A stretch of 64,000 nucleotides of DNA from Coriobacteriales bacterium (GTDB lineage Bacteria; Actinomycetota; Coriobacteriia; Coriobacteriales; Atopobiaceae). Position 1 is the first letter of the stretch; the number at the start of each line of letters is the position of its first letter. The notes beneath the pieces were generated by a model. That model worked only from the letters and a program-made list of their open reading frames with translations. It was not told the DNA's origin and did no database searches. Positions 5,550 through 39,987 of the stretch are shown here, piece by piece. The stretch is from the NCBI GenBank assembly GCA_030529625.1, contig JAUMWN010000004.1, positions 1 through 64,000 on the forward strand. The letters are read 5' to 3'. The translations under genes were made by a program, and so were the position numbers.

Positions 5550-5571
5550 GGGCCGGCGAACCATAGCATTG

Positions 5572-5620
5572 ACCGAACACGGGGGACACACCTCTTCGAG
5601 GTGTGTCCCCCGTGTTCGGT
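5572..5620. repeat. Perfect 23-bp-arm palindrome after glmM
   Basis: Arms of 23 bp around a 3-base loop (CCTC-TTC-GAGG at the apex). It sits between glmM and its terminator. A diverged copy occurs at 31333-31376 after the DUF4143 gene. Confidence 0.85.
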
Positions 5621-5629
5621 CTCGCACAT

Positions 5630-5701: not shown

Positions 5702-7048
5702 CTACGCCAGGTGTCCCTTGGCAGCGATCACGTCAATCACATCGTCCACGTAGCGCTCGCAGATCTCGTCGGTGCCAGCCTCAACCATCACGCGAATCAC
5801 GGGCTCAGTACCGCTCTCGCGCACCAGGATGCGCCCCTCATCGCCCAGCTCGGCGGCAACGCGCTTTACGGCGGCCTGCACGTCCGGGTCGTTTTGCGCC
5901 TCCGGTTTGCTCTTTACCCGCACGTTCTTGAGCACCTGCGGATAGAACACCACCGGAGCCGCAAGCTCGCTCATGGGCAGGCCCTTGGAGATCATGACCT
6001 CCATCAGCTTGAGGCTGGTGAGGATACCGTCGCCAGTGGTCTCATACTTGGAGAAGATGATGTGGCCGGACTGCTCGCCGCCAATGCAGTTGCCCGTCTC
6101 GACCATGTTCTCCCACACGTACTTGTCGCCCACGGCGGTCTTGTCATACTCGATGCCCACCGCGTCGAGCGCCTTGTACAGGCCGAAGTTGCTCATCACG
6201 GTGGTGACCACCTTGTTGTTGATGAGCTTGCCGCGCTCCTTCATGTACAGGCCGTAGATGTACAGCACGTGGTCGCCGGTGACGACGTTGCCCTTCTCGT
6301 CCACGCAGATGCAGCGGTCGGCGTCGCCGTCGTAGGCAAAGCCCACGTCCAGGCCGTTGTCCACCACGAACTTTTGCAGGTGCTCGATGTGGGTGGAGCC
6401 GCAGTCGGTGTTGATGTTGTAGCCGTTAGGCTCGTCGCTCATCACATACGTCTTTGCGCCTAGGGCGTCGAACACGCGGCCGGCAATCTGCCAGGCGGCG
6501 CCGTTGGCGAGGTCCAGACCCACCTTGATGCCCTTAAAGCTGAACTTGTTCATGGAGATGAGGTGGCCGATGTAGCGGTTGCGGCCGCTCACGAAGTCCA
6601 CCGTGCGGCCAATCTCGTCCCGCTCCGACACGGGAATCTCGATCTTGCCGTCGATGTAGTCCTCGACCTTGAGGATGGTCTCCTCGTCCATCTTCTCGCC
6701 ACCGGCGTTGAGCAACTTGATGCCGTTGTCCCAGTAGGGGTTGTGGCTCGCGCTTATCATGATGCCGCAGTCAAAGTCGTCGCGGCTGCAAATGTAGCTC
6801 ACCGACGGCGTGGTGGTTACGTGCATGATGTATGCGTCGGCGCCGCTGGCCATAAGGCCGGTGCACAGCGCGTACTCAAACATGTAGCTCGAACGGCGCG
6901 TGTCCTTGCCAATAACGACCTTGGCCTTCTTGCCCTGACGGGCACCGTAGTACCACCCGAGGAAGCGGCCGATCTTTATGGCGTGGTCAAAAGTGAGGTC
7001 GCAGTTGGCCTCACCACGAAAGCCGTCTGTGCCAAAGTACTTGCCCAT
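5702..7048 (-). CDS. Phosphoglucosamine/phosphohexose mutase (glmM paralogue)
   Basis: 448 residues, start chosen at MGKYFGTDGFRG with GGAGAAGGCGAC upstream. Seen: SASHNPYWDNGIK (phosphoserine loop), DGDADR (Mg site), RESGTEP. It is close to the first GlmM along the whole length but clearly diverged, so this is an old paralogue. It is the third gene of the run nagB - beta-helix protein - this gene, with 13-bp gaps, so its substrate is probably an amino-sugar phosphate. It may be a GlmM isozyme or have shifted to N-acetylglucosamine or mannose phosphates; sequence alone does not decide. Confidence 0.88.
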   Translation of the reverse strand: MGKYFGTDGFRGEANCDLTFDHAIKIGRFLGWYYGARQGKKAKVVIGKDTRRSSYMFEYALCTGLMASGADAYIMHVTTTPSVSYICSRDDFDCGIMISASHNPYWDNGIKLLNAGGEKMDEETILKVEDYIDGKIEIPVSERDEIGRTVDFVSGRNRYIGHLISMNKFSFKGIKVGLDLANGAAWQIAGRVFDALGAKTYVMSDEPNGYNINTDCGSTHIEHLQKFVVDNGLDVGFAYDGDADRCICVDEKGNVVTGDHVLYIYGLYMKERGKLINNKVVTTVMSNFGLYKALDAVGIEYDKTAVGDKYVWENMVETGNCIGGEQSGHIIFSKYETTGDGILTSLKLMEVMISKGLPMSELAAPVVFYPQVLKNVRVKSKPEAQNDPDVQAAVKRVAAELGDEGRILVRESGTEPVIRVMVEAGTDEICERYVDDVIDVIAAKGHLA

Positions 7049-8528: not shown

Positions 8529-8848
8529 GAAAAAAACCTCCTTGCGACGCATGGTCGCACCGATGTTGTTGCTCGTGGCGACAGAAGAGCCTCTGTTACG
8601 GTGTTGATTCCGCTTTTTACTCTCTTCCTCTCGACCCGCCTTTTGGCCGTGGCAGCACCCGCCGAGTCTTTCGATAACTGCCATCCTCGTCAACCATCTC
8701 TGGTCCAGGCGCTAACGACTTCCCTTGTTGTGATTGACCCTCCTTTCGCGGAAGCGTTTGGTCGGTATTAAACCACAGAGTCGCTCGCTTTGCGCAAATC
8801 ACACGGCACCACCATGGGGTCGGCCTCATAGACCGTAACAAACGCGCA
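8529..8848. other. Gene-free spacer upstream of nagB
   Basis: About 320 bp separate nagB from the lipoprotein terminator. I see no credible gene. A long nagB leader is likely. A TTGACG followed 17 bp later by AAGACT on the minus strand near 8700 is only a weak promoter candidate. Confidence 0.4.
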
Positions 8849-17570: not shown

Positions 17571-17599
17571 TGAGAAAAGGGGTCTGACCCCTTTTCTCA
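17571..17599 (-). terminator. TGAGAAAAGGGG palindrome overlapping the rhomboid stop codon
   Basis: Perfect 12-bp arms TGAGAAAAGGGG/CCCCTTTTCTCA with loop TCTGA. The right end supplies the TGA stop of the rhomboid gene. An otherwise identical copy with loop TCTGG ends the VanY gene at 35827-35855. Confidence 0.8.
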
Positions 17600-27785: not shown

Positions 27786-27913
27786 CCGGTCCCTCATTCA
27801 TACTGTATTTAATCGCGAGATGCCTATTAACTTATCAGTATATCGGTTTAGCCACGCCGGCCCTGCGGCAGTTTGCCTCACATGGCTGTACGGTAGCTAG
27901 GCTGGAGGTGATG

Positions 27914-27965
27914 CCGCGCTCGGGGGACAGTCCCCTGCGCACAGGGGACTGTCCCCCGAGCGCGG
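27914..27965. repeat. Perfect 24-bp-arm palindrome in a divergent promoter region
   Basis: Arms CCGCGCTCGGGGGACAGTCC... with a CGCA loop. Exact cores GGGGACAGTCCCC (27923-27935) and GGGGACTGTCCCC (27944-27956). It lies 50 bp upstream of the MATE gene and about 130 bp from the divergent permease fusion, so terminator function is not obvious here. Confidence 0.9.
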
Positions 27966-28014
27966 GCAGTGCTATGATTTCCACTGGATTTGGCCGCACA
28001 GGTGATGAGACAGC

Positions 28015-29989: not shown

Positions 29990-31330
29990 ATGCACCGGGA
30001 CATTCTGAATGACCTAGAAGAATGGAAGGCGTCATCCCATCGCAAGCCGCTCATGCTCAAGGGCGCTCGACAGGTGGGAAAGACATGGTCGCTCAAGGAG
30101 TTCGGCGCTCGGTCTTACCAGAACGTGGCATATTTCTCGCTCGAGCGCATCGACCGAGACACGCCGAGCGAATGGGCCGAGTTCTTCCAGACGACGAGGG
30201 ATCCCCATCGCATCGTGGCCAACCTTTCCTTGGCAAGCGGCTTTGTTATACGACCAAAGACGACACTCCTCATTCTCGACGAGATACAGGACTGTCCCGC
30301 AGCCATTGGCGCACTCAAGGCGTTTTGCGAAGATGCACCAGAGTATCACGTGGCAACTGCGGGCTCCCTTTTGGGGGTCGCCCTTTCACGCGACAAGGGT
30401 TCGTTTCCCGTGGGCAAGGTAACCTTTATGGACATGCAGCCACTCACCTTCTCTGAGTTCCTGCGGGCAGACGGAGCAAGCAACCTTGCCGACTGGTGCC
30501 AAGACGTGCATGCTAGCGAAGGCGTGCCCTCAATGATTTCCGCACGGCTCGCCGAAGAGCTACAACGCTACTTCGTGGTGGGCGGCATGCCCGAGGCGGT
30601 CAAGCGCTGGAGCGAGACGAGTGACGTTGGGCAGGTAGACCGCGTGCTGGCCGACCTGCTTGACTCCTACGATCGTGACTTTGCGAAGCACGGGGGAGTC
30701 GCGATGTACGCGAAGCTCTCGCGCGTGTGGCGCTCGCTTCCCACGCACTTGGCACGCGAGAACAAGAAGTTCGTCTACGGGCAGGTTCGGGAGGGAGCTC
30801 GCGCACGAGAATACGAGGATGCCATAGAATGGCTCGCGAGCGCCGGACTCGTGCGCAAGGTGGTGCGCAGCAAGGCACCATCTATACCCCTCTCGTCAAA
30901 CGACGATGAAGCCGCCTTCAAGCTCTACTGTCTTGACGTGGGCCTCCTGCGTGCGATGGCCCACTTGCCCGCAACTGCCTTTGGACGCACCGACGAGCTG
31001 TTCTCGCAGTTTAAGGGAGGCTTCGCGGAGAGCTACGTCGCGCAGACTCTGGCGGGGCAGTTCGCAGCGCCTGTTCGCTATTGGACCAACGCCAAGCCCA
31101 GGCACGAGGTGGACTTTATTGTACAGGCGGGCGAACAAGTGGTGCCCATCGAGGTCAAGTCGGGAGAGAATGTGCGTGCATCCTCGCTTCGCTACTATGG
31201 ACGCAAGTACCCAGAGGCAACGCCGCTTCGCGTACGCTGCTCGCTCTTGGGCCTTCGGCAAGATAACGATATGCTCAACGTCCCCTTGTACCTTGCCGAC
31301 CATATGGCAAGGCTCATTGGGGAGAGGTGA
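29990..31330 (+). CDS. AAA_14/DUF4143 family ATPase
   Basis: 446 residues from MHRDILNDLEEWKASSHRKP, with GGAG 6 bp upstream. Walker A LKGARQVGKTWSLKEFG, Walker B LLILDEIQDCP, sensor-like TAGSLLGVALS, then the winged-helix middle and a C-terminal nuclease-like DUF4143 domain with the RHEVDFIVQ...VVPIEVKSGENV motif (D...E.K). These are common accessory-region ATPases of unknown role, often placed near toxin-antitoxin or phase-variable loci. Confidence 0.93.
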   Translation: MHRDILNDLEEWKASSHRKPLMLKGARQVGKTWSLKEFGARSYQNVAYFSLERIDRDTPSEWAEFFQTTRDPHRIVANLSLASGFVIRPKTTLLILDEIQDCPAAIGALKAFCEDAPEYHVATAGSLLGVALSRDKGSFPVGKVTFMDMQPLTFSEFLRADGASNLADWCQDVHASEGVPSMISARLAEELQRYFVVGGMPEAVKRWSETSDVGQVDRVLADLLDSYDRDFAKHGGVAMYAKLSRVWRSLPTHLARENKKFVYGQVREGARAREYEDAIEWLASAGLVRKVVRSKAPSIPLSSNDDEAAFKLYCLDVGLLRAMAHLPATAFGRTDELFSQFKGGFAESYVAQTLAGQFAAPVRYWTNAKPRHEVDFIVQAGEQVVPIEVKSGENVRASSLRYYGRKYPEATPLRVRCSLLGLRQDNDMLNVPLYLADHMARLIGER

Positions 31331-31332
31331 GC

Positions 31333-31376
31333 GGAACACGGGAGACATACCTCGAAGAGGTGTGTTCCCGTGTCCC
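31333..31376. repeat. Diverged copy of the 5572-5620 palindrome
   Basis: GGAACACGGGAGACATACCTC pairs imperfectly with GAGGTGTGTTCCCGTGTCCC. Its sequence parallels the palindrome after glmM, but the apex differs (CGAAGAGG). Confidence 0.7.
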
Positions 31377-31390
31377 GTCATCCTAGAGGA

Positions 31391-31614
31391 TCTGCTGCAA
31401 AGTGCAGCGGTGCACAGGCGGGACGCGGGCGTTTGCCGTAATCTGCACTGGTGCATAGATGAGAAGACCAAATCTGCTGCAAAGTGCATCGGTGCACAGA
31501 TTTTGCTATGCACCGCTGCACATTACAGCAGATTTGGGGGCACGACCCATGCACCAGTGCACTTCTCAGCAAACGCAAGGGCAAGACCTATGCACCGGTG
31601 CATTTCTCAGCAAG
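31391..31614. repeat. Array of six TGCA-N4-TGCA units with 41-bp period and a central inversion
   Basis: The 12-mers start at 31403, 31444, 31485, 31509, 31550 and 31591, so spacing is 41, 41, 24, 41, 41. The first three read TGCA(G/C/T)(C/T)GGTGCA and the last three are reverse-oriented. Each unit carries a related flank (TCTGCTGCAAAG or TTGCTGAGAA). The central two form a 30-bp imperfect stem (31470-31499 with 31506-31535) around ATTTTG. The array lies between convergent genes. Function unknown. Confidence 0.9.
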
Positions 31615-31667
31615 TCCTATGCGGACACCCCCGCGCGGACACGGGGGAACCGTCCCCCCAAACGCGG

Positions 31668-34605
31668 CTACCACTGCTTGCGGGTAACGAAGTAGAGCGT
31701 CGCCGCGCACACAAGGCAGAACGCACCGATCACGATGATTGCCAGCCTACCCCCCACCAAGATCAGGCCAGTGAGGATAAAGGGCTTGGCAATGCGCGCG
31801 ACGCTGCGCACCACAAACATGGCACCCGTCGCCCAGCCCAGGGGCACGTTTGCCTTACCCGCCGAGGTTATCCACAGGGGCTTCCATGCGTTGGCGATCT
31901 TTACCAAGAGGCCCACGAGCGCGATGACCACCACGCCCCACACGATCGTGGTATTGAGTGAGAAACACAGGAAGACGACGCCCAACCCCGCGATGGAGTA
32001 GTCGCCTGCACGCCAGTTGCCAATCCGCTTGCTGAGCCGCTCAATCCAGCCAATGCTCACATATACGATGAGCTGGCCAAACAGATACATGTTGTTGATG
32101 TCGGCCTTGGCAAAGCCCAGGTCGGCCGAGAAGAGCGGGAACAGCGTGGACGCATAGCCCGTGACCACCACGCTGGGCAGGATGATGCACAAGGCGATGG
32201 CGAGCGCCACAGGGCTGAGCACGAACTTGCGTATGCGGCGGCGCTCATCGGCAGAGAAGTCGCGGTCGTCCTCGGGCGGCAGTGTGCCTTTGGGAAGCAG
32301 AATGATTGCCATCGTGATTACGGCGAGGCTCACCAGCGCAATCATGATGTAGACGCCCACGTTGCCGAGCCCCTGAGCGGCATAGCCGCCCAACGCCGTG
32401 CCCAGTGCGGCGCTCGAGGTATTGGAGCGCTTGACGCCCGCCTTCGCCAGGTGCTGCTGCTCAGGCGTCACCGCATGGCGGCGCAGCGAGTAGGCGGCAG
32501 TGTAGAGCAGGCCAAAGGGGACGGCAAGCACGAACTTGGCAGCGCAGTACGCCCAAAAGCTGCCAGAGACAACGGAGGCGGCCACCAGGATTGCGCACGC
32601 AAGCATTGCGGTGGCACCACGTGCCATGAGCTTGCGCAGTCCCACTTTGGAGCCGAGCAGGCCATACACGCCTTGTCCCAAAGCTTGGCCAACGCCCAAC
32701 ATGACGGCGGGCACGGTTACGAGTGCGGTCACGTCTCCCATGCCGGCCGCCACGAGCATCTCCCTGGCAATGAGGGTACTCATAACGGCGTCGATGCCCG
32801 CAAGCATCATGGTCGTAAGCGCAAAGGGCCGTGCCAACGCCGAAACCGCGCCCTTCTCGGCCGTCTGCTGGATGTGACGGTAGCGCAGCACGCACTTGCC
32901 GCACGCCTGCAACTCGGCATAGGTCATGTATATTACGAGGGCGAGTACGAGCAACGCGAGGGTGTTACGCACGAGGTTGGATGCCACCGACGAGGTAAAC
33001 GACTTCATCTTGCTGCCTACCTCAATAACGAAGTCGTTGGAGCCCTCTCCCGTGGCCGGAATGTAGACCGTACGGTACATCGTGTCCTCGTGGCGTGACG
33101 AGCCACGATGCATCTCTTTGCTCGATTCCTCCTTGTTTGCAAAGACCTCCCGCACGTTGGCAATACGATTGGACTCGCTCACCGACTCGCCCCACATGTA
33201 TTCGCCCAGGCCGTCGTCCATGCAGTAGATGCCCTTGTCATCTCTGCCGTACAGGACGTAGTACATGCCAATGCCGTTGTCTTCTGCCGTATCGATGAGG
33301 CCCGAAATCTGGAGGCAGGTAAACTACAAAGTTGGTAGTCTGCTGTGTGGTGAGATCTACCGAATCCCTAAAGACGGTCCTGCTTCCAACGGGCGAAAGG
33401 GCCTCCGAAAACGTCTGCGCGTTGTTCGCAAAATAGTCCGCATAGGCGCCAACCTCTTTGGAGCGTGTCTCGACTTGCGCGCGGTACGTATAGAACGCCG
33501 TATGGCCCAAGGTAAGACCCACCGTAAGCACCACCGCAAACGAGGCCACGGGGCCCGCAACCTGCGAGATGGTGCCCGTCGCAAGCAGTCTCCTCACATG
33601 ACGCACAGCAAGCACGAACAAAAAGACGACGAGGTACGCCGCACACACCCACAGCGACACCACCCTCAGCGATACGCCCACCCGCGGCGTGACCGACCCA
33701 AGGCGGGCGTGGATGTTGCCCGTCGTGTAGTAGACAAGGGCCTCGTTGGCATCGGCATCGAGCAACGTGATGGTATTACCCACAATGCGTATACGCGTGC
33801 AGGAGAGGCCATCAACGATCTTGGTCACCGTGCCGTCATCGGCCACCTCGCACAGGGCATGCGTCGCATCGTCGGTCGCAACGATTTGCCCCGCGTCCGA
33901 TAGCGCCAGCGAGGTAAACAGGTTGTCGCCCTTGTCTGTGACCACAGCCGCACCATCGTCGTTTATCACACCACGCTGGCTCAAAGTCACGATCTTGTTG
34001 AGGGATGGTATATAGGAAGCCGATGCCAAGATGTTGTGGTTGACGGTAGTCGATGTCAACTCGCGTGGCTCTGCGCCATCGGCAAGGAACAGGAACCGAA
34101 CGTCGGTGTGACCGTCGTCCTTCTTGTTCGGACTAGTAACTCACGCCCGCACCCCGCCATCCTGGTCGTCGAGCGAGAGGATGCCCGGCTTTGTACCTTG
34201 GCCTTTTTGCTCGTACACGATGCCCTGCTGTGCGCCGTTCATGCCATAGGCGACCACACGCTCGAGCGCAATCACGTTGCTGTCGGGCTTGTAGCGCATG
34301 CCGGCAACGTACACGCGACCATTGGACACGCACACGTCCGTAACGATCTCGAGCGGTGCCTCAAAGGTCTCGTAGTCTATGCAGGCGTACAATTCGTTGT
34401 TGCCGTCCACAATGAGTACCTTGCGCGCCTGGTCGGTGGCGACGGCCGTGTAGGTACCGTCGGACGAGGCTGCCGTGGGGTGGTCGAGGGCAACCTCGGC
34501 AAAGGGAATCCAAGGCAGCGGTGCGCCAAACGACGCGATGATGGCCACGAGCGAGACGATCGCAAGCAGGTAGAAGGGACCCGGCACGCGTATGCCCTTA
34601 CTCAC
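31668..34605 (-). pseudogene. Broken gene for a membrane sensor fused to an MFS-type transporter
   Basis: From GTG 34605 (VSKGIRVPGPFYLL, GGAGG upstream) the frame encodes a TM and a beta-rich repeat region, then meets an in-frame TGA at 34141-34143. The same frame resumes at once (VTSPNKKDDGHTDVRFLF...) through more sensor, several TMs and an extracytoplasmic domain to VVYLP near 33315. A one-base shift in CCTCCAG then moves the protein to the next frame (QISGLIDTAEDNGIGMYYVLYG), which continues through a TM and a ~12-helix MFS domain (LARPFALTTMMLAGIDAVMSTL...) to 31668. Two independent lesions suggest decay. The MFS half (33266-31668) is intact but lacks a convincing start of its own. Confidence 0.85.
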
Positions 34606-34651
34606 CTTGCACCTCCCCGCCGGCTCCACATGTGCCACCATGGTAGCACGT

Positions 34652-34723
34652 GGGACAAAGGTGACGGGGACGTTTGTCCCGCTTGACGGGATGCAGGACA
34701 AATGTCCCCGTCACCTTTGTCCC
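34652..34723. repeat. 28-bp-arm palindrome with a GTGACGGGGAC core
   Basis: Arms of 28 bp with one G-T pair around a 16-base loop. 27 bases of the left arm recur exactly, as a single arm, at 39239-39265. Confidence 0.9.
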
Positions 34724-34741
34724 GAGACTGGTTCCGCCGCG

Positions 34742-35826: not shown

Positions 35827-35855
35827 TGAGAAAAGGGGTCTGGCCCCTTTTCTCA
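35827..35855 (-). terminator. TGAGAAAAGGGG palindrome overlapping the VanY stop codon
   Basis: Perfect 12-bp arms with loop TCTGG. Its right end forms the TGA stop of the VanY gene. Same stem as 17571-17599. Confidence 0.8.
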
Positions 35856-39390: not shown

Positions 39391-39649
39391 ACATGCACCC
39401 CTTTCGGAGTGCATGGTCATGCGCGGTGGAGGTGCGGAGAATCGAACTCAATCAGCGCCTCGAGCACGCTCGCGTCACGCTCAGCCGCCCATGAACAGGG
39501 GACGGGTTTTTCGTTCACGCGAGTGTGCCGTGAACAGGGGACGGGTTTTTCGTTCATGCTCGCGTGAACGAAAAACCCGTCCCCTGTTCCACGTGCACCC
39601 CTCACGAGGCGCACGGTTATCTTTGGTGGAGGTGCGGAGAATCGAACTC
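39391..39649. repeat. Direct duplication of the ssrA 3' end and hairpin, 200 bp apart (att-like)
   Basis: 39391-39449 and 39591-39649 align without gaps, with 25 identical bases at 39425-39449 and 39625-39649 (the tmRNA T-arm/acceptor end) and a weaker hairpin half. Only the right copy encodes CCA. The left hairpin (TGCACTCC-GAAA-GGGGTGCA) is followed by TTTTT on the minus strand, a good terminator. This is what a deleted integrative element at ssrA would leave. Confidence 0.75.
39493..39589. repeat. 31-bp inverted arms plus a direct 25-bp copy
   Basis: 39493-39523 is exactly complementary to 39559-39589. A direct copy of the first 25 bases lies at 39532-39556. The unit contains GGGGACGGGTTTTTCG. 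It sits between the two ssrA-end copies. Confidence 0.85.
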
Positions 39650-39987
39650 CGGTCCAAAGCACATCCCTAACGGCTTTCTCCAAGCTCAGTTGCCAGTTGG
39701 CATTCGGTTGCGTTGCGCCTGGCAACCAGCGCGCGGCTTCCTAGCTGGTTCGATCTTTTCGTACGGCATACCAGCTACGTCCGTACGAGCATCTCCCTCA
39801 ATGACGTCGCACCGCAAGCGGGAGCAACCCGCGGATTGACGGCTGCACAGTTAGTTAGGCAGCGAGGGCATAGCCCTCAAAAGAATCAGTCTTGTCAATT
39901 CATTTGACGATACCCCTGTTTAACGTGGCGAGGAGACCACGGCTTGCTTACCGTCTCAGACATACCCTGTCGAAACCAGTCACCCCC
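39624..39987 (-). ncRNA. ssrA: Transfer-messenger RNA
   Basis: Rescues stalled ribosomes with SmpB. The 5' end GGGGGTGACTGGTTTCGACA and 3' end GGAGTTCGATTCTCCGCAC...CCA are diagnostic; GGGGGTG pairs with CACCTCC as the 7-bp acceptor. The encoded tag ends with DKTDSFEGYALAA and a TAA (about 39896-39855). Length about 364 nt. A TTGACA lies 31-36 bp upstream of the mature 5' end, but no -10 is clear. smpB and rnr are nearby on the same strand. Confidence 0.95.

Follow-up and report, generated by a model that had tools for sequence, protein, structure and literature searches.

Between two convergent genes of a Coriobacteriales genome lie six TGCA-N4-TGCA 12-mers at a strictly repeated spacing, and the question is what kind of object such an array is: a site for a host protein, a folded RNA or something that moves. 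A sequence-only reading of the region had offered an iteron or centromere-like site, a recombination site or a highly structured RNA. We find that the array is real and was under-read: it belongs to a dispersed, foldback-like element that carries no gene, is restricted to one lineage and has phase-locked units.

Architecture of the array

In the window (the whole 64-kb stretch of DNA that was analysed), the pattern TGCANNNNTGCA has exactly six matches, the cores listed in Table 1, and no others; 1.88 are expected per window, and six were reached in 1 of 100 shuffles. The TGCA-N4-TGCA sites follow each other at 41, 41, 24, 41 and 41 bp. The four pairs exactly 41 bp apart compare with 300 first-order Markov sequences of the window's length, none of which contained even one. 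Unit direction, which was read from a conserved upstream TTTGCTG and a GG ahead of the second TGCA, gives three forward and three reverse units. Positions, spacings and orientations are borne out as first described. At the centre of the array, two 32-nt arms (31468-31499 and 31506-31537), 88% complementary, form an inverted repeat around a 6-nt loop. This agrees with the imperfect stem of 30 bp proposed earlier, but the symmetry is that of an inverted repeat (dyad) and the description as a "mirror" falls away.

Three features had been overlooked, namely the longer repeat unit, the palindromy of the whole block and the dispersed family described below. The repeat unit exceeds 12 bp, with about 28 of 41 positions conserved. 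The 41-bp direct repeats stand three on each side, with conserved parts of 28 nt and 25 nt, and form inverted arms (70 nt, 71% complementary); imperfect palindromy extends over the whole 232 bp. The GC content of the element is 0.547 against 0.613 for the window, so that it is not strongly AT-rich. Its left neighbour encodes an AAA_14/DUF4143 protein (+ strand, ending at 31330) and its right neighbour an MFS protein (31668-33266, - strand), which confirms the location between convergent genes. Elsewhere in the window, Rfam identifies a tmRNA (39624-39987, - strand) that ARAGORN missed and a glmS ribozyme (8573-8724, - strand).

Table 1. Parts of the element and adjoining palindrome, in window coordinates
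Feature	Position	Strand	Remark
Whole element, inverted repeat with three 41-bp units per arm	31387..31618	.	232 bp
Unit 1	31388..31426	+	12-mer core 31403-31414
Unit 2	31429..31467	+	core 31444-31455
Unit 3	31470..31508	+	core 31485-31496
Unit 4	31497..31535	-	core 31509-31520
Unit 5	31538..31576	-	core 31550-31561
Unit 6	31579..31617	-	core 31591-31602
Separate dispersed palindrome of the "H" family, outside the 41-bp array	31332..31377	.	abuts 7 of 14 copies

A dispersed family restricted to one lineage

A search with the 232-bp block, in which each place was read, revealed 14 copies in the genome of the window (G000): ten complete six-unit copies (contigs 70, 103, 152, 194, 87, 114, 24, 17, 50 and 95), two cut by contig ends (contigs 58 and 134) and two rearranged (contigs 139 and 14). 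The block matched in both orientations because it is palindromic. Modelled from sequence alone on 59 units (score of at least 34, without N), the 39-nt unit gave 75 matches in this genome at E<=0.5 and 64 at E<=1e-3. All of these 64 units sit inside the 14 places and none is solitary; therefore the whole block is dispersed, and not single units. Lone 12-mers at three further loci (L053, L054, L055) were discarded as chance matches, no unit being present there at E<=0.5. The assembly itself is a fragmented MAG with 89.86% completeness and 7.51% contamination. All 14 copies (about 230 bp) lie between predicted genes and none overlaps one. Their gene contexts are mixed (convergent, tandem and divergent), and the nearby genes are unrelated (ruvB, holA-like, ilvB-like, leuA and others), with no shared neighbour type.

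Three of the 16 genomes of the genus, this one included, carry the element: G008 has one complete copy and G015 one fragment. Among 395 genomes of the order it was found in these three only, and in none of the 379 outside the genus. A pattern scan of the genomes of 84,980 species, of which the present genome is possibly not a member, returned contigs of two relatives only ("Coriobacteriales bacterium isolate S14M_St_23" and "uncultured Coriobacteriaceae bacterium isolate RUG12554"). The 41-bp pair pattern occurs in 3 of 396 genomes of the class: 18 times in the present genome, once in G008 and once in G354, where it was taken as chance because the flanks differ. The element was not found in plasmid records, phage records or viral contigs, and a plasmid iteron or phage element was rejected on this ground.

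This distribution does not fit a single iteron, centromere-like or locus-specific recombination site: there are 14 copies in mixed contexts, and most genomes of the genus lack the element, as do the syntenic sites in G015. A single regulatory or centromere-like site was likewise rejected in view of the dispersed family. The suggested association with a DUF4143 ATPase proved weak, since only 2 of 14 copies (in the window and on contig 24) adjoin such a gene, and a DUF4143-linked site was discarded.

Boxes and pitch are conserved, linkers drift

Conservation was measured on 11 complete copies, ten in G000 and one in G008. Copies at contig ends (L048, L050) and rearranged copies or fragments (L051, L052, L057) were left out of the spacing and arm statistics; in L042, counts passed over the masked Ns, which were set to A for folding only. 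All 11 copies have 3+3 units. Their outer spacing is 41 in 41 of 44 cases, 40 in two and 43 in one (beside the masked Ns), and the centre spacing is 24 in eight copies and 23 in three. Rearranged copies (L051, L052) do exist, and copies with lost units persist. The check proposed with the sequence-only reading, whether close relatives retain spacing and symmetry, has a mixed outcome: the site is not kept there, but both properties are kept between the dispersed copies.

Eight copies form a main subfamily. They are 7.5-17% off their consensus and hold about 215 substitutions, together with one internal indel, or two if the masked place is counted; yardstick indel-to-substitution ratios are 0.05 and 0.1. 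The complete copies outside the main subfamily (L046, L047 and L049) keep boxes and spacing, and their identity to the main subfamily is 0.92/0.87 in the TGCA boxes versus 0.53/0.49 in the linkers. In the main subfamily, departures from the consensus affect 23 of 384 box cells (6.0%) and 73 of 528 linker cells (13.8%; Fisher p=1.2e-4), and private changes alone number 13 in boxes versus 35 in linkers (p=0.035). Boxes change less than linkers and the 41-bp pitch is steady, which leaves boxes and pitch as the conserved features. The idea that the regular spacing presents sites to a protein is supported to this extent: the copies share the spacing, and it is the TGCA boxes, not the linkers, that are conserved, a pattern to be expected of boxes read by a protein.

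Presence and absence at orthologous sites

The comparison with G015 covered about 2.01 of about 3.2 Mb, and copies with both flanks on one G015 contig were considered testable. The element is missing in G015 at all five such copies (L041, L043, L046, L047 and L049). The L043 site, 250 bp long in G015 versus 645 bp, is the only simple short gap, with flank lengths that differ by more than the element; the element is missing there in G006 too. At the L041 site, G015 has a different 2.3-kb gene segment between the same flanking palindromes. At the L046 site, it has neither the element nor the extra leuA end found beside it in G000, and at the L047 and L049 sites it lacks larger segments, element included. 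The flanks of L040 fall on two separate G015 contigs. A gain of copies in the lineage of G000 is the simpler reading, although loss in G015 is possible too.

No consistent target-site duplication was found in 12 copies: same-position repeats of at least 5 nt occur in 5 of the 12, with differing lengths and places. At L046 a second leuA end lies across the element from the first (L046:5700-5800 and 6260-6330), possibly a long target duplication. Neither a transposase-bearing copy nor a unit outside the arrays was found in this assembly of 89.86% completeness.

Neighbouring palindromes and RAYT-like genes

Two dispersed palindrome families, H (GACGGGAC...GTCCCGTC) and T (AAAAGGGG...CCCCTTTT), accompany many copies. 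Of the 14 copies, 10 have H or T within 60 bp (H at seven, T at six), versus 10 occurrences elsewhere in the 222 kb of own sequence examined, and TCCCGTC, the end of H, often closes the left outer flanks of copies. Three Y1_Tnp genes are present in the genome; two of them are RAYT-like and flanked by their own GGGGGAC-type palindromes, so RAYTs may move H-like repeats. The element may target H/T-type palindromes or ride with them.

These data could be read as those of a BIME-like passenger, in which the block would travel with H and T palindromes moved by RAYT (REP-associated tyrosine transposases) and the array would have no transposition-site function of its own. We regard this as unlikely, even though the proximity of H and T, the TCCCGTC ends and the Y1_Tnp genes with their palindromes all speak for it. 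Neither H nor T is present at 4 of the 14 copies, no copy of the element accompanies the two RAYT-like genes that were examined, where H matches are short and weak, and the conservation of boxes and spacing amid linker drift is left without account. The element as the flanking repeat of RAYT itself was rejected on its absence beside these two genes.

Members of the H family are about 45-60 bp long and CGTC-ended; besides the one in Table 1 the window has another at 5570-5622, and further species of the genus also have H-like sequences. The T family (AAAAGGGGTTTGGCCCCTTTTC) occurs in the window at 17571-17599 and 35827-35855, and in G015 also just after ruvB. Two more short palindromic repeats (window about 27910-27966 and 34651-34724) recur in several other loci of the genome and also in G008 or G015.

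DNA sites versus a folded RNA

The predicted RNA folds of the complete copies are long hairpins of about -107 to -161 kcal/mol, which follow from the inverted arms. A structured RNA, that is, a transcribed block whose long imperfect hairpin acts as RNA, for instance at gene 3' ends, would be consistent with such very stable folds. It would also be consistent with the main-subfamily consensus, in which mismatches comprise 13 A-C versus 3 G-T on the window strand (two-sided binomial p=0.021), an excess that hints at G-U pairing on the opposite strand. However, no consistent strand bias of G-U pairs is seen in the three remaining complete copies, and the arms do not co-vary copy by copy: their complementarity is 0.681 within a copy versus 0.674 between copies (permutation p=0.17). 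Pairing selected in each copy would give a better arm match within copies; none was seen. Our reading of the array is chiefly one of sites on DNA, and RNA is kept as a rival. Linker complementarity is 0.45-0.47 and alike in both copy groups, and pairing does not explain the likeness among units 1, 2 and 3 of one arm. Contexts vary, no promoter-like site was found, and there is one weak terminator-like site versus 0.4 expected. No Rfam covariance model matched the element at its gathering score, and a known Rfam RNA was thereby rejected. The structured RNA suggested at the outset is thus possible but, in our judgement, improbable.

Slightly less credible still is a dispersed array of protein-binding sites (nucleoid, segregation or regulatory) that benefits the host and is selected in place: the scarcity of indels (1-2 versus about 215 substitutions in the main subfamily) and the conserved boxes of standing copies would suit it, but the element is absent from 13 of 16 genomes of the genus and from all other genomes of the order searched, damaged copies that have lost units survive, syntenic sites do not keep the element and no gene type is common to its neighbourhoods.

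Comparison with known elements

The closest likeness is with three groups. (i) The eukaryotic foldback transposons FB, Tetris and Galileo have long inverted arms built from direct sub-repeats inside them, a middle that is small or missing, and non-autonomous copies; in Galileo, the sub-repeats of the arms are described as additional transposase sites (PMC4079207). The present element shares the direct sub-repeats (3 x 41 bp per arm) and has a 6-nt loop in the window. It differs in being bacterial, only 232 bp long and fixed at three sub-repeats per arm, and in that neither a transposase copy nor a consistent target duplication was found for it. (ii) Prokaryotic MITEs, including BrickBuilt of Porphyromonas gingivalis, are similarly short, intergenic, dispersed, species-restricted and folding. 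BrickBuilt is described as a MITE with an internal tandem repeat, present in 19 copies (PMC4596501, PMC10969869), whose 23-nt repeats run head-to-tail with small inverted ends, whereas our element has two opposed arms at a fixed 41-bp pitch. The element shows the MITE traits of being short, dispersed, intergenic and non-coding, with terminal inverted repeats and presence/absence at orthologous sites. (iii) REP/BIME sequences (GTAG and CGTC superfamilies; PMC3733652) are likewise intergenic palindromes; such palindromes are found beside the block, and RAYT-like genes are present in the genome. A REP, however, is a single 20-40 bp palindrome beside a RAYT gene, and the element is a 232-bp six-unit array that does not lie beside the two RAYT-like genes examined. 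No bacterial element with such an architecture was found in the open-access literature searched.

A foldback-like element with putative protein sites

We therefore propose, as the probable explanation, a non-autonomous foldback-like or MITE-like mobile element with putative protein sites in its arms. Points against it are that neither a consistent target duplication nor a transposase-bearing copy was found, that only one of the five G015 sites is a simple short gap, that loss in G015 could account for the absences, that the element is not strongly AT-rich and that the assembly is fragmented and contaminated. Briefly, the element is non-coding and consists of two inverted arms around a 6-nt loop; three direct 41-bp sub-repeats form each arm, and every sub-repeat contains a near-palindromic TGCA-N4-TGCA box and a conserved upstream TTTGCTG segment. 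The six boxes would be the sites of a protein acting in trans, in the simplest case a transposase or an accessory factor of a recombinase, which may assemble on both arms in fixed helical phase; movement of the element would require this protein to be provided in trans. It "works like" a MITE or foldback element and is not a certified member: MITE membership is unproven because no consistent target duplication and no autonomous partner were found.

More tentatively, the element may represent a new class of bacterial foldback transposon, gene-less and built of two opposed arrays of three phase-locked putative sites, on which a possibly host-encoded protein would assemble a six-site complex for movement, with genus-wide palindromes as preferred targets. 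If the main proposal is right, foldback elements have a counterpart in bacteria, with a site geometry fixed at 2 x 3, and the conserved 41-bp pitch would point to a protein assembly within reach of a pull-down. The presence/absence pattern between sister species makes the movement of the element testable.
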